A DNA stretch of 33,250 bases from a virus, in the IMG/VR virus record IMGVR_UViG_3300032291_001670, positions 1 through 33,250 of that record; one strand, written 5' to 3'. Position numbers and translations under genes: made by a program. The notes under the pieces are model-generated. The model was not told where the DNA came from, searched no databases, and was given only the letters and a program-made list of their open reading frames with translations. Every line of letters begins with the position of its first letter. The stretch's first letter is position 1. This document shows, in pieces, positions 3,101-22,246 of this stretch.

Positions 3101-3179
3101 TAAGACCTGTAGCACTATTGGTCATCTTCAAGAGACCTTGAAAACTACTACTTACATATAAATTATTTAAAGCACCCAT
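1..3179 (-). CDS. Large tail-fibre/adhesin with collagen-like and NTAIG repeats (3' end continues across the circle join)
   Basis: A single minus-strand frame opens at the ATG at 3179, 17 bases after the preceding gene, and stays open to position 1. It continues at 33127 and stops at 33114-33112, giving 1064 residues. Architecture: an N-terminal segment (about 1-63) probably anchoring to the virion; a long Gly-Ser/Thr-Ser triplet block (about 64-232); a globular stretch with a short second triplet block near 335-350; a Ser/Thr/Asn-rich beta region; YadA-head-like repeats with the core NTAIG (about 762-927); and a C-terminal domain ending VAYQIINPI. These features fit a trimeric fibrous receptor-binding protein. 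The frame has no proline-rich collagen triplets; it is the Ser/Thr type known from phage and other virion fibres. No chaperone-like peptidase tail or catalytic motif is visible. Its host receptor cannot be told from the sequence. Confidence 0.9.
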   Translation of the reverse strand, partial: MGALNNLYVSSSFQGLLKMTNSATGLTNSLQTIEAGDGSDSPLQMSLTQVNISGSFTINNLPFSGSSSGTSGTSGSSGTSGTSGSSGTSGSNGSSGSSGSSGSNGSSGTSGSSGSTGTSGSSGTSGSSGTSGTSGSSGSSGSSGTSGSSGSNGSDGSSGTSGTSGSNGTSGSDGSSGTSGINGTSGSSGSNGSSGTSGSSGTSGSDGSSGTSGSSGSDGSSGTTGSSGTSGNDGLGLPSKVIPLDATGWSWDNVWARKTITFAQPFASSDYSVDIMYNNGIGAIGDELPYYSLTSAYQIGYSGKSASGLTIYTAQDLTSGFYSGWTGYVNCIAAGSSNGSGTSGSSGTSGLTDKTGLITTGSIVETQSITGSLIESGSLSVIGFTNMSGSLWIKKQDNTNVNYVTESGVQSNIYFGQTSNTSTLSGSYVVSGSNNLLLSQLSFSPTTMGYINGTSNIGLGGTINMNTSSLLQPTTNNNNINNNIALTFTSSSLGQPSINSNIINASQTFNHPSSSLLMTTNVLNASVTSTSNLTTHTVRPTFQNNIVNHTLALNQFSSSVLTTNNIIGGSTTINNSYFQTGSNNSVSLAANIFGGQTTVINVAGNPQTNVSRTIVGNLIGGTTNTVSAQITGSDLGGLRNTAIWGFNLNVTGSHSAAQTTTQGAAFFGRWNSEADGLADSARTVFAVGTGTATGALRKTALYVTSGSIVGVSGSLLVNGNSVVTGSIIVSSGSIYNRGGGNQINNLAYGQDALLFASSSTSNNTALGYSALYYNTIGTSNTAIGANAMLNNISGSNNVGIGDNSLRDNLASNNLAIGSFTLFRNTTGAGNIAIGDASLRENISGSNNTSIGRNSLVNNLYGGANTAIGSTALSSNLIGSDNISFGYDSQFFNQSGSNNISIGNTSLYTNVSGSRNIAIGDNAGRFETGSNSFYLDNQNRGNLNAMRSGSLLYGTFNATSGSQILQINANTDIRFGIKVQGNVQFESGSNKTMGTVALNGGNPGTATISNTLVTTSSLIFLTKQTNNHPNAGPVVVSSKGSSTFTITSNHNGDTDTVAYQ
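400..895 (-). repeat. About nine NTAIG-type beta-roll repeats inside the fibre gene
   Basis: The translation repeats every 19-21 residues with a core such as NTAIGANAMLNN, NVGIGDNSLRDN, NLAIGSFTLFRN, NIAIGDASLREN and NTSIGRNSLVNN. The Asn/Gly-rich period matches the left-handed beta-roll repeats of YadA-type adhesin heads, which form trimeric stalks or heads. On the DNA the repeats show as recurring plus-strand text like accaattgc. They are diverged from each other, so recent slippage is not indicated. Confidence 0.85.
2483..2990 (-). repeat. Collagen-like Gly-X-Y low-complexity block in the fibre gene
   Basis: Roughly 55 consecutive triplets of Gly followed by Ser/Thr and Ser/Asn/Asp (GTS, GSS, GSN, GSD) fill residues of about 64-232. 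The DNA is built from short units like cctgatgaacca in variable order. The block is probably a flexible or triple-helical stalk. The repetitiveness keeps other frames open, producing spurious overlapping ORFs, and the copy number may vary by slippage or assembly collapse. Confidence 0.9.
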
Positions 3180-4250: not shown

Positions 4251-4547
4251 TTAGATAATATTGTTGGCCTTTTTCATCCTCTTAACTTCTTCCTTATCTT
4301 TTTCTATCAAATAGGATAACATATTTAAGGTTTCAATAATTCCTTTCTTAGCGATGCTATCGTGTCTTGTAATATCATCATCTGCAATTCGGTTAAGAAC
4401 CATGTACCATCCGAATTTTTCTTCCATAGATTTGTCCATATTCTCTTTCTCCATCTCCATACGAATTTTATCTGCATCCAACTTACTTTCATCCATGTCT
4501 TCAAAGATATTGGGGTACTTTGAGAATAGATCCTTGCGAAATGAATA
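4251..4547 (-). CDS. -1 frame extension of the post-terminase gene (C-terminal half of the 275-residue product)
   Basis: Reading in the -1 frame after the T9 run gives YSFRKDLFSKYPNIFEDMDE and continues through KFGWYMVLNRIADDDITRHDS to a stop at 4253-4251, 98 residues in all. This frame is highly charged, has sensible composition and joins the upstream frame seamlessly (GSQFFF then YSFRKDLF). The alternative zero-frame tail is tryptophan-rich and looks non-biological. An internal ATG at 4496 could start a separate 81-residue protein, but the coding signal extends upstream of it to the T-run. I therefore read it as the true C-terminal domain of the gene starting at 5077. Confidence 0.75.
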   Translation of the reverse strand, partial: YSFRKDLFSKYPNIFEDMDESKLDADKIRMEMEKENMDKSMEEKFGWYMVLNRIADDDITRHDSIAKKGIIETLNMLSYLIEKDKEEVKRMKKANNII

Positions 4548-14201: not shown

Positions 14202-14210
14202 TGTGGATAA
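14202..14210 (+). promoter_or_regulatory. Perfect DnaA-box sequence upstream of P3
   Basis: TGTGGATAA is the complement of the bacterial DnaA box TTATCCACA. It lies six bases before the -33 element of P3. The same box occurs five bases before P4, within a shared stretch GTGGATAACTTT(T)ATTTGGTA. Confidence 0.55.
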
Positions 14211-14216
14211 CTTTTA

Positions 14217-14248
14217 TTTGGTAATTTTAATACGATTTATTATCTTTA
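14217..14248 (+). promoter_or_regulatory. Promoter P3 (TTTG-N20-TATCTTTA)
   Basis: TTTG at 14217-14220 and TATCTTTA at 14241-14248, 20 bases apart, fit the Bacteroidota consensus. The ATG at 14267 is 18 bases past the box, as in P4. The leader is short and A-rich (ataaaacaaaaatt). Confidence 0.72.
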
Positions 14249-14266
14249 CACTATAAAACAAAAATT

Positions 14267-14482
14267 ATGCGAACAATTACAAATGAACAAATTAAAAATT
14301 TAACTTATGATGATTATATACATATTATATATTCAGCGTTTGAAATAGATAAATTTAATGAAAAAGATAAAAAAGGTATTAATTTTCAAATGTTACGAAT
14401 ATTAAAACGTAATGAAAAAAAATATGGTATTGATTTAAAAATTTTAGAAAAAGAAGTTAAACCATCAATAAAATTAGGATAA
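14267..14482 (+). CDS. Small protein driven by P3, function unknown
   Basis: The 71-residue protein MRTITNEQIKNLTYDDYIHI is lysine-rich and helical (FNEKDKKGINFQMLRILKRN). It has its own promoter (P3, with a DnaA box) and its own terminator (14499-14529), so it is a single-gene unit. The leader is like that of the microprotein at 20439. It has no recognised domain. Independent control suggests a dose-sensitive or early role. Confidence 0.7.
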   Translation: MRTITNEQIKNLTYDDYIHIIYSAFEIDKFNEKDKKGINFQMLRILKRNEKKYGIDLKILEKEVKPSIKLG

Positions 14483-18739: not shown

Positions 18740-19702
18740 CTATGCTAAGTTGTTTGTTGCGAAATATGCAGTTGAACCAAACGTAGCGATTGTTACACCG
18801 TAGTTATAGTTTGCACGTAATCTTAACTCATCAAAATCTTTTGAGTACCAGATAACTAATTTCTCGTGGTCAGACAATAAGTCAAAACCTACAACCATGT
18901 ACTCACGTGGTCCGATTACAACTTGATTTGATCCGTTAAGACCAATAGTTGGAACGACTTTAACGTTTGTATTAGGTTGAGTTGCTTCCATCATTCCTGT
19001 AATATCAGATGAACCGATATAGTTTTGGAAGAAGTTAGCACGTGTTAACGCTTGAATGTATAAACGGAAGTTAGCGTATGACATAAACACAACTAAATCT
19101 TCACGAGACATTGCGTTGTCATCTAATACGTTAATCAATTTATCTACTTCAGTGATTGGATTACCACTAACACCATATGCAGCAGTACTTGAGAAAGTAA
19201 CACCTGTAGAGTTAGCAACACCTGTTGTACCTGTTGAGATTAAAGTTTTAAATCCTGTGAAACAAGATGAACCTGTTGTTGCTTGCCATAATTGTTGTTC
19301 AATTCTTTGTTGAATTTGTTTAACTTTTAACTCAGCAATTTGTTGTTCAAATGGAACTGTCTCAGATGTTTGACCTGGTGCCATTAACATTGACTGATAT
19401 GTATCATACAAATCCTTATAACATAATGCTTCATTATATTTCTCAGGACAAGTTGTGATGTTTGTTTGAGAAAACTCAGTTGTACCTGATGGAGACCATC
19501 CACAAGTACCGTCTTGGAAATAAGCAACTGAATTTAATAAATTCAATGCTTGTGTACCTTTAATACCTAAACGTACGTTTGCGTAACGAGCGGTTGTTCC
19601 ACCGATTAACGCTTTTGAAAGTAATTCACCACCAACTTGGTCTACGTATCCACCGATAGTAGCAACGTCGTATTGGAATTGTTCTCTTGATAAAATTTTC
19701 AT
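18740..19702 (-). CDS. Major capsid protein
   Basis: The 320-residue protein begins MKILSREQFQYDVATIGGYV and follows the scaffold gene by 25 bases. It contains KVKQIQQRIEQQLWQATTGS, a typical spine-helix/P-domain boundary of HK97-fold capsids. It ends with ELRLRANYNYGVTIATFGSTAYF, close to C-termini of other capsid proteins. A glycine/threonine/serine-rich insert (GTTGVANSTGVTFSSTAA) lies mid-chain. Size, location and the neighbouring scaffold and protease make this the capsid shell protein. Confidence 0.8.
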   Translation of the reverse strand: MKILSREQFQYDVATIGGYVDQVGGELLSKALIGGTTARYANVRLGIKGTQALNLLNSVAYFQDGTCGWSPSGTTEFSQTNITTCPEKYNEALCYKDLYDTYQSMLMAPGQTSETVPFEQQIAELKVKQIQQRIEQQLWQATTGSSCFTGFKTLISTGTTGVANSTGVTFSSTAAYGVSGNPITEVDKLINVLDDNAMSREDLVVFMSYANFRLYIQALTRANFFQNYIGSSDITGMMEATQPNTNVKVVPTIGLNGSNQVVIGPREYMVVGFDLLSDHEKLVIWYSKDFDELRLRANYNYGVTIATFGSTAYFATNNLA

Positions 19703-19727: not shown

Positions 19728-20303
19728 TTATTTATTTGTTTTTCTTAATGCTGCAATGGCTTCTAATTTAGAATCCATGTAGTCATCTGTTTTATTAAAC
19801 TTTTCAGTTTTTCCATCAGCAATCTTTTTTGCTGCAGGTTCTTTTTTGAATGAGTTAAAGTCAGTAGATAATGAAGACATTTGTTCTTCCATCTTTTTAA
19901 CTTTATCACCCATTTTGTAGATAAATTCTTTCAACATATCTACCATTTCTTTTGACATTCCGTCTTTAGATACTTCAATCTCAACTTCAGCTTCAGGTTT
20001 TTCCATTTCTGGTTCTTCTAATTTTTCTTCAATCTTAGCGATAATACCTTCCTTAGTTTCAACTTTCGTACCATCAGAAATTTCATGTACGCCATCTGGT
20101 GCGGGTATTTCTCCCTCCTCAGTAACGACAACAACTTTAGCACCTTCAACTAAAGAATCACCTTCCACTTTAATTGCGGTACCATCAACCAATTTTGCAT
20201 CAATGAAAATCTCTTTTACAATTTCAGTTTCTTCATTTTTCAAGAAACCAAACTGTACCATAAGGGATTTAATCTCTTGAATAGCACTTTTTGAATTTGA
20301 CAT
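19728..20303 (-). CDS. Capsid scaffolding protein
   Basis: The 191-residue protein has an N-terminal domain with FIDAKLVDGTAIKVEGDSLV and VVTEEGEIPAPDGVHEISDG, a beta domain I recognise from Bacteroidota phage scaffolds. An acidic linker and a coiled coil (MLKEFIYKMGDKVKKMEEQM) follow, and the lysine-rich C-terminus could bind the capsid. It shapes the prohead and is removed by the protease encoded upstream. It is the gene just before the capsid protein. The upstream region holds an 18-bp palindrome. Confidence 0.8.
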   Translation of the reverse strand: MSNSKSAIQEIKSLMVQFGFLKNEETEIVKEIFIDAKLVDGTAIKVEGDSLVEGAKVVVVTEEGEIPAPDGVHEISDGTKVETKEGIIAKIEEKLEEPEMEKPEAEVEIEVSKDGMSKEMVDMLKEFIYKMGDKVKKMEEQMSSLSTDFNSFKKEPAAKKIADGKTEKFNKTDDYMDSKLEAIAALRKTNK

Positions 20304-20334
20304 AATTTACGTTTATTTTATTTTATTTATTCCT

Positions 20335-20352
20335 TATCTATATATATAGATA
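20335..20352. promoter_or_regulatory. Perfect 18-bp palindrome upstream of the scaffold gene
   Basis: TATCTATATATATAGATA is perfectly self-complementary and lies 32 bases before the scaffold ATG on the minus strand. It also lies 37 bases before the -33 element of the plus-strand promoter P4. It could be an operator serving both directions; an AT-rich chance palindrome is the alternative. Confidence 0.4.
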
Positions 20353-20374
20353 TAAGACATTATTACCATTAATA

Positions 20375-20383
20375 TGTGGATAA
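20375..20383 (+). promoter_or_regulatory. Perfect DnaA-box sequence upstream of P4
   Basis: TGTGGATAA (complement of TTATCCACA) lies five bases before the -33 element of P4. About twenty bases around it match the region upstream of P3, differing by one T. Confidence 0.55.
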
Positions 20384-20388
20384 CTTTA

Positions 20389-20420
20389 TTTGGTAGGTAT
20401 GAAAATATGTTTTAATTTTG
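20389..20420 (+). promoter_or_regulatory. Promoter P4 (TTTG-N20-TAATTTTG)
   Basis: TTTG at 20389-20392 and TAATTTTG at 20413-20420 exactly fit TTTG-N20-TAnnTTTG. The ATG at 20439 is 18 bases past the box. The promoter points opposite to all flanking genes. Confidence 0.78.
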
Positions 20421-20438
20421 TATCCTAAATTAAAAATT

Positions 20439-20510
20439 ATGAAAAAAGAAAAAACAATGGGAGACATTTGGATTTGGGACAGAAGAATCGGAATGTGGAT
20501 CGTAAAGTAA
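20439..20510 (+). CDS. 23-residue tryptophan-rich microprotein
   Basis: The frame starts ATGAAAAAAGAAAAAACA and encodes MKKEKTMGDIWIWDRR and then IGMWIVK. It has a basic start, three tryptophans and a hydrophobic C-terminus. It has its own promoter (P4) and terminator, so it is a complete one-gene transcript, lying antisense in the gap between the protease and scaffold operons. Such a peptide could associate with membrane or inhibit a host protein; that is a guess. It is also possible that the transcript works as an RNA. No known family is recognised. Confidence 0.6.
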   Translation: MKKEKTMGDIWIWDRRIGMWIVK

Positions 20511-20516
20511 ACAAAG

Positions 20517-20545
20517 AACCCCTCGTAATTGAGGGGTTTCTTTTT
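20517..20545 (+). terminator. Intrinsic terminator of the microprotein unit
   Basis: AACCCCTC (20517-20524) and GAGGGGTT (20531-20538) form an eight-base-pair stem with a six-base loop, followed by TTCTTTTT. It lies seven bases after the microprotein stop. Confidence 0.85.
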
Positions 20546-20561
20546 ACATATAATCTAATAA

Positions 20562-20723
20562 TTATTTTCTTTTTTCAAGTATTAAATAATTAATTTTAGT
20601 TATTAATTCCTCTATTTCTTTTGGTGTAACTAAATAACCAATTGGTTCTTTAGGGATATATTGTATCCCTTGCATTAATCCGAATTTTATATTTGTTAAT
20701 TCTAATTCTGTTAAATTTTCCAT
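20562..20723 (-). CDS. Small protein, function unknown
   Basis: ATG at 20723 opens a 54-codon frame: MENLTELELTNIKFGLMQGI, then QYIPKEPIGYLVTPKEIEEL. The residue pattern is a plausible helix-strand-helix and the leader is the usual A/T-rich one. It lies between the protease stop (20756) and the microprotein terminator and belongs to the leftward operon. No function is recognised. Confidence 0.6.
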   Translation of the reverse strand: MENLTELELTNIKFGLMQGIQYIPKEPIGYLVTPKEIEELITKINYLILEKRK

Positions 20724-20755
20724 AATTTATATATTTTATTTTTTATTTTTATTCT

Positions 20756-22246
20756 TTAATATTTCTTTAATATCTCAGCAACTTTGTATAAGAACATTTC
20801 TTCCTTACTGAACGCTTGAACTTCTTCAAAGAAACCTGATACACTAAATCCGTTTAACTTACCTTCCTTTACTTGATTCCATACCTCATCACCTTTTGGT
20901 GTCTTAGCGATCTTCATGGATAACATCCACGATCCTACAGGAACATCACCAAATCCGTATTTTACTGACTTATCATTCTCATCTTCCTTAATCCAACTCT
21001 CAATCACATATACATCTCTTACCGCTTTACCATCGTGCATCAAATCATTATTACGTGTATATTGATTCTTCATATACTTCTCACTTATCATACGAATTGT
21101 TTGTGCTGTAAAGAACACATAATATGGATTACCCATTGCATCTTTACGGAATATCTTTTGATCAGGTATCATTGCTGGTCCTAATACAATTCTTTTTTCT
21201 TCACTATCAATTTTAAAATATTGTTTTGACATTTTATCCGCTTGATTGATTTTTGATTGAGACCAACTTAACGCTGACTTTCCTCCCCAACTATCATACA
21301 TCAATTTACCACATCCATCTCCATATCCTTTACTTGATTCTAAATCTACCTCATGACGGGATAAGTAACTATACATCCTTTTAACTGTATCCAGACTGAT
21401 TGGTTCACCCTTAGCAAGTTGATTAGCACGTTGTTTTCCTACATCAGTTCCACAACTACCCCATCCATTTTCTTCCACATATTTCAATACCGCTTGTGCG
21501 TTGTTTTTAACACTATCAGGATAATCACTATAACTTTCAAATGTTGTTGGTTCTACCAATGATTTTGATATTGTATCACCTGATACTTCATCCACATAAG
21601 ATGGTAAAGGATTGTCATAACCAAATGATGCTTTACCTGGTACTCTTGTGTCGGGTTGAGGTATCCCTAATACATCATAACTTTCAGCACCATCAATTCT
21701 ACCTTTTGTACTTGATCCTTTATTAACAATTCTATCACCTTTTCTATATTCTATCTTCTGCCATAAATGTCTACAGTTATACGATCCCCTCCAAACCATT
21801 GCTGAACTTCCCAAATCGTTTGTAATACCCTCTAAGTCCTCAACACGGTACACAAAATTCTTTTGTAGTAAATCCTTACAAAACTCTCTTGTGGTGTCCT
21901 TAATGGGACTCCCTGATGCTTGTGGGTTAAGTACGTACTTATATCTAATTAACCTTTCTTCTGTATCCTCAAATGATGGTGAGTTTGGTGATGATGATAT
22001 AAAATCTTCTTTTACCATATCCCATCCATCGTTAATTAAATCATCTTCAGACTGACCTTTTTCAAGTATCATTGATGAGAACTTCATATCCTCACCATCG
22101 GGTATAAAAAAGTCTTCTTGTGTCTTATTGAACGCTAACCAATTAATGCAAATTGCAGGTTCATCAACTAATGATACTGCGTCAACACCTGACAACTCAT
22201 CATCTTCTTCAATCTTTAATTCAAATATTTTTTCTTTCTTTATCAT
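20756..22246 (-). CDS. XkdF-type prohead protease polyprotein
   Basis: The 496-residue protein has an N-terminal XkdF-like beginning (GVDAVSLVDEPAICINWLAF, 21-40). Next is a Mu-F-like block with DTTREFCKDLLQKNFVY and GSYNCRHLWQK (117-164), then a phage module NAQAVLKYVEENGWGSCGTD to KGYGDGCGKLMYDSWGG (249-322). The C-terminal serine protease core contains NNDLMHDG (His405) and GFSVSGFF (466-473). The protease core cuts scaffold and capsid proteins during maturation. The two inserted modules divide the protease halves, an unusual mosaic. The gene lies between the tape measure and the scaffold. Confidence 0.8.
   Translation of the reverse strand: MIKKEKIFELKIEEDDELSGVDAVSLVDEPAICINWLAFNKTQEDFFIPDGEDMKFSSMILEKGQSEDDLINDGWDMVKEDFISSSPNSPSFEDTEERLIRYKYVLNPQASGSPIKDTTREFCKDLLQKNFVYRVEDLEGITNDLGSSAMVWRGSYNCRHLWQKIEYRKGDRIVNKGSSTKGRIDGAESYDVLGIPQPDTRVPGKASFGYDNPLPSYVDEVSGDTISKSLVEPTTFESYSDYPDSVKNNAQAVLKYVEENGWGSCGTDVGKQRANQLAKGEPISLDTVKRMYSYLSRHEVDLESSKGYGDGCGKLMYDSWGGKSALSWSQSKINQADKMSKQYFKIDSEEKRIVLGPAMIPDQKIFRKDAMGNPYYVFFTAQTIRMISEKYMKNQYTRNNDLMHDGKAVRDVYVIESWIKEDENDKSVKYGFGDVPVGSWMLSMKIAKTPKGDEVWNQVKEGKLNGFSVSGFFEEVQAFSKEEMFLYKVAEILKKY

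Follow-up and report, generated by a model that had tools for sequence, protein, structure and literature searches.

The window analysed here, the whole 33,250-base stretch of a virus record, carries on its minus strand genes for terminase, portal, head-protease-like and tape-measure proteins. In this leftward structural operon, a head-maturation-protease-like protein of 496 aa (20756..22246, minus strand; phrog_3017, E 7e-15) and a putative scaffold protein of 191 aa (19728..20303, minus strand) are the left and right core neighbours of a filled gap of 452 bp (20304..20755), and the scaffold gene is followed by a putative major capsid gene (18740-19702, minus strand), the roles of the last two being assigned from position. 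The gap, which is empty in most relatives and bracketed by TATTAA, contains a plus-strand unit at 20375-20545 made up, in this order, of a DnaA-box-like element, a promoter of the Bacteroidota type, an ORF of 23 aa and, at the end, a strong intrinsic terminator. The preliminary description had located this unit inside the structural operon, where it indeed sits in the intergenic gap, outside any gene. A 53-aa ORF in operon orientation (20562..20723, minus strand), present in the window only, lies between the protease-like gene and the terminator of the unit; no homologue was found in the fetched relative loci or in PHROGs, and it was noted as an extra insertion beside that terminator. An AT-rich palindrome-like stretch, TATCTATATATATAGATA, was also observed at 20304-20375, just upstream of the scaffold start, and similar stretches occur in sites with and without an insert. 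Among the window ORFs scanned, none was identified as a repressor or integrase, no Rfam family was matched in the window, and the capsid gene had no relative in 395 Bacteroidota genomes.

The plus-strand unit and the site that it occupies

The box TGTGGATAA (20375..20383, plus strand), located 14 nt upstream of the -33 element, is the reverse complement of the DnaA box TTATCCACA, and is a perfect DnaA box when the minus strand is read. The promoter TTTG-N20-TAATTTTG (20389..20420, plus strand), with TTTG at 20389-20392 and TAATTTTG at 20413-20420, matches exactly the -33/-7 consensus of Bacteroidota housekeeping promoters (TTTG, about 19-21 nt, TAnnTTTG), and the transcription start is predicted from it at about 20427. 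The "consensus promoter" claimed earlier is therefore sound as one of the Bacteroidota type, whereas an E. coli sigma-70 promoter scan found no match in the 20375-20545 unit. The micropeptide gene (20439..20510, plus strand) runs from ATG to TAA over 24 codons, stop included, and encodes MKKEKTMGDIWIWDRRIGMWIVK, in which the three tryptophans reported among 23 residues are seen. Its start codon is preceded by A at -3, -6 and -12, a context that favours translation in Flavobacterium (PMC6847099). The terminator called at the end of the unit, GAACCCCTCGTAATTGAGGGGTTT followed by CTTTTT (stem 20516..20539, plus strand), recurs in other cassettes. All the parts previously described within about 170 bases were thus present. 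Taken by itself, the promoter pattern does not occur significantly more often in the window than expected (3 times against 1.24); the ordered combination of promoter, ORF and terminator occurs once in the window and in 0/2000 of its dinucleotide shuffles. Independent support is given by the same terminator and promoter at the homologous place in other phages, and by two homologues of the peptide.

The putative capsid protein and the protease-like protein each served to fetch relatives, and the protease-scaffold gap was measured in 155 loci. Among the 81 distinct gap sequences obtained, 62 were short (54-82 bp) and 19, the window included, were long (280-1072 bp). Since some of the filled loci came in through terminator or promoter scans, the filled fraction of 19/81 is biased; the initial set, for which only the capsid protein had been used, gave 6/62. 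Among close relatives, L003 is empty while L008 and L095 carry other genes, with flanking bases nearly identical. The insert starts after the protease stop codon, and the TATTAA brackets are found in the window and in L095. The unit is therefore an insertion between genes that are adjacent in relatives, with clean flanks, as in phage morons (62 empty versus 19 filled).

The filled sites share a common frame. The cargo is antisense to the structural operon in all 19, the promoter core TTTGG-N19-TAnnTTTG is present in 17/19, and an exact TGTGGATAA box in 15/19, two more having it with one mismatch. Furthermore, 17 of the 19 are closed by either of two terminators, AACCCCTC...GAGGGGTT or GGGTCCC...GGGACC, and the terminator core AACCCCTCGTAATTGAGGGGTT or a close variant is found in 12. 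Possession of an own promoter and an own terminator, another moron property, is thus seen at the sequence level only, as elements conserved among cassettes. The cargo itself is variable and horizontally acquired, differing from phage to phage, again as in morons: HNH nucleases are present in L041 and, by translated sequence, in L005, a SprT-like metalloprotease is encoded in L140 (1521-2123), and many cargo proteins have no family assignment. The cargo at L128 182-589 was observed to resemble, by appearance, the SprT-like protein of L140. Cargo proteins are 84-92% identical between phages in which the neighbouring core protease segment is only 64-71% identical, which indicates that the cargo moves between phages. 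Judged from these sequences, the junction is a moron-type accessory hot spot, filled by different genes in related uncultured phages.

Boxed promoters and their candidate regulator

Loci fetched regardless of promoters contain 22 exact copies of TGTGGATAA, 17 of which are followed by a Bacteroidota-type promoter that reads in their orientation; for 60 permuted 9-mers used as a control, the corresponding count averaged 0.02 and never exceeded 1. The distances from box start to -33 start were 14, 15, 24, 25, 27 and 38 nt, and the DnaA box accordingly holds a conserved position upstream of the promoter, as in DnaA-regulated promoters. At some cassette promoters two or three boxes are found 12 bp apart, as in the tandem arrays with 12-bp steps upstream of the cassette promoters of L148 (5182-5252) and L092 (2180-2249); these distances and spacings look like those of activator sites placed near helical steps. 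Because TTATCCACA is a perfect DnaA box, DnaA is the simplest candidate for the protein bound to TGTGGATAA, an assignment that is possible but falls somewhat short of even chances, a phage protein being another possibility.

The full promoter pattern was found in 26 stretches of IMG/VR and in only 2 of a genome set of 84,980 species, collections that differ in size and make-up, and this suggests that it is mainly a phage feature. The window contains a second boxed promoter (14202..14269, plus strand), whose DNA is 72% identical to the first copy; downstream of it lies a 71-aa ORF (14267-14482, plus strand), followed by a terminator-like repeat. Additionally, a conserved 5′ leader, GGGACAG-n-TCTGAACA, was observed 9-10 nt before the ATG in 10/10 occurrences (L091, at 3102-3123 on the minus strand, L092, L100, L103, L148, L202, L049, L055, L059 and L149), each copy being downstream of a Bacteroidota-type promoter. 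This leader can form a short stem-loop in L091, and the window cassette is without it.

The micropeptide and the competing readings of the unit

Homologues of the 23-aa peptide were found by DNA pattern scans. One, MRQKEKTFGDYWIWSKEFNCWVVR, is encoded in L091 (3018-3092, minus strand), where slot, promoter and terminator are the same as in the window; the other, KNKTIGDIWVWDNKTSMWIVK, is encoded in L230 (about 4455-4520, plus strand), a phage with related structural genes, at another locus and behind a boxed promoter. The window and L091 peptides align with a score of 79, the best of 5000 shuffles reaching 46. Across the three members, all from metagenomic contigs, nine columns are invariant (K3, K5, T6, G8, D9, W11, W13, W20 and V22), all three tryptophans included, and a length difference of a single codon between the window and L091 leaves the frame intact. 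The identity between these two phages is 48% for the peptide and 85% for the flanking protease. Their codon changes are spread as 8, 8 and 9 over the three positions, with no third-position excess, so that purifying selection on codons is not supported by a family of three, which is too small for a codon test. The L230 copy has no in-frame ATG, GTG or TTG, ATT being a possible start, and this copy may be decayed or misassembled. Translation of the peptide is considered very probable.

Neither the peptide nor its L091 homologue was assigned to a family in Pfam or PHROGs at E up to 10, the L091 peptide had no match among PDB sequences, and INPHARED phages, PLSDB plasmids and PADLOC gave only chance-level peptide matches or none. 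Several candidates were discarded: an 18-base DNA match in L001 was an unrelated coincidence, weak profile matches in L106, L112 and L121 were due to the fetching DNA pattern or lay inside other genes, and the profile matches in 395 Bacteroidota genomes were as numerous as expected by chance. Another open frame of L230, similar to the window, was rejected as the conserved reading, given that L091 has a stop in that frame.

The tryptophans of the peptide follow the pattern W-x-W-x6-W-x-V. In autonomous beta-hairpins, such as GB1 residues 41-56 and the trpzip designs, a W-x-aromatic element is separated by six residues from an aromatic-x-V element. The peptide shares this pattern, although its L091 homologue is without a sequence match in PDB chains, and a self-folding, Trp-stabilised beta-hairpin is, on balance, a slightly favoured reading of it. 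The L091 motif IWSKEFNCWV also has a counterpart, IWSKEQNKWI, in a cargo protein of 72 aa from the same site (L092 and L101), an equally good match being found in 1/5000 shuffles. AlphaFold predicted the matching motif of this protein as strand-turn-strand with a mean pLDDT of 67.8, and a fold search with the model returned nothing significant (best E 0.28); the model of a 93-aa cargo was helical and of low confidence. The peptide has a net charge of about +3 and no hydrophobic stretch of membrane-spanning length, which argues against a membrane-spanning peptide.

The match to the 72-aa protein raises the question of whether the peptide is a decaying remnant of a longer cargo gene of that kind, with promoter and terminator persisting. 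The fast divergence of the peptide and the lack of a standard start in L230 would fit such decay; however, the three copies are equal in length within two codons and end in the same stop residue, ATG is kept in two of them and the invariant residues include every tryptophan, which renders a remnant improbable. That the unit acts instead as a non-coding regulatory or antisense RNA with an incidental ORF, as the preliminary description had also proposed, would agree with its position antisense to the operon message spanning the gap and with the folding of the window transcript, which is better than that of shuffles (z -3.8; coding part -4.2), and 12/15 of the window stem pairs are also paired in L230. 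Nevertheless, the coding part of L091 shows no folding advantage over its shuffles (z +0.6), with 10/15 of the window pairs retained, the amino-acid match is far above chance with a frame-preserving indel, and the other cassettes of the site carry ordinary, sequence-unrelated genes, leaving no conserved RNA target. Since the hairpin is not kept in L091 and the peptide is, the protein is the conserved entity, and the RNA reading becomes quite improbable. The comparison of codons with RNA structure that had been proposed for related phages thus favoured the peptide, whose conservation in two other phages sustains the earlier view of an autonomous antisense micro-transcription unit with a peptide gene.

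A last reading takes the cassette mainly as a regulatory insulator, in which a convergent promoter and a terminator palindrome tune protease-capsid transcription and the cargo is secondary. The terminator is nearly symmetrical and is called on the operon strand too, and the insert always occurs at the same junction. Nonetheless, the operon-strand U tract is weak, the insert is absent from most relatives (62/81), and inserts carry long conserved genes moving between phages, making an insulator highly improbable. By comparison with these readings, it is highly probable that an uncultured Bacteroidota phage carries here a cargo cassette of the moron type, because the site is empty in most relatives, the promoter and terminator are common to unrelated cargos and the cargo is conserved. 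The self-contained nature that had been taken to suggest a small inhibitor, membrane-active peptide or regulatory RNA is real, but it reflects one occupant of an exchangeable cargo site.

Proposed mechanism and relation to known systems

In the moron cassette so understood, host RNA polymerase with the housekeeping sigma factor would start transcription at about 20427, possibly with the aid of a TGTGGATAA-binding protein, for which host DnaA is the simplest candidate. Transcription would terminate near 20540, ahead of antisense read-through into the protease gene, yielding an mRNA of about 115 nt from which the 23-aa peptide would be translated at its A-rich start. The peptide might then fold into a Trp beta-hairpin, in which a short loop would join the strands DIWIW and MWIVK, and might bind and inhibit a host or competitor-phage protein. 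This last step is the weakest one and is drawn from what moron products usually do (PMC7067206); inhibition of a host or phage protein is the most likely single role, held as a tentative suggestion. The account as a whole, which joins a moron cassette, a shared control frame and a conserved peptide cargo with a presumed inhibitor action, is considered probable.

Phage morons, as known from lambdoid HK97-type phages and from the antisense accessory loci of Salmonella prophages (PMC7067206), are extra genes with their own promoter and terminator located between core genes, and an own promoter and a position antisense to lytic genes are both cited as moron features (PMC7067206). The cassettes described here resemble them in being missing in relatives, in their antisense orientation, which is frequent among morons, and in their variable, horizontally exchanged cargo; their absence from most relatives is also consistent with a product dispensable for phage growth, as for morons. 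They depart from known morons in that a single promoter-terminator frame serves, at one place, many unrelated cargos, in that the promoter has a DnaA-box-like element, repeated in tandem at 12-bp steps in some members, and in that a cargo of only 23 residues can occur. Expression of classic morons does not depend on the lytic genes and often takes place in the lysogen. The unit had been presented as not yet described: its kind is already known, but novelty seems to lie in the boxed promoter and in the micropeptide family, for which Pfam, PHROGs and PDB sequences gave no match. Regarding the box, literature cited in PMC3985674 reports that DnaA stimulates transcription from lambda pR through RNA polymerase. 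Host DnaA boxes would lie near a phage promoter in both systems, those described here being candidates read from the DNA; the lambda sites are tied to the replication origin region, whereas the present ones lie upstream of the -33 element of accessory-gene promoters.

These features allow a further, rather unlikely proposal, in which a single promoter-terminator frame, switched by host DnaA through phased TGTGGATAA boxes, would provide a slot into which genes for host takeover or competition are plugged, Trp beta-hairpin micropeptides of 22-24 residues being its smallest active cargo. If true, this would be a previously undescribed phage system. Phage genes this short escape gene callers, and a conserved product of 23 residues, whose promoter and site are defined, can guide further finds. 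Accessory genes that uncultured Bacteroidota phages can exchange are also readily surveyed at this junction, and through the boxed promoter a connection between host DnaA and the expression of phage accessory genes becomes open to testing.
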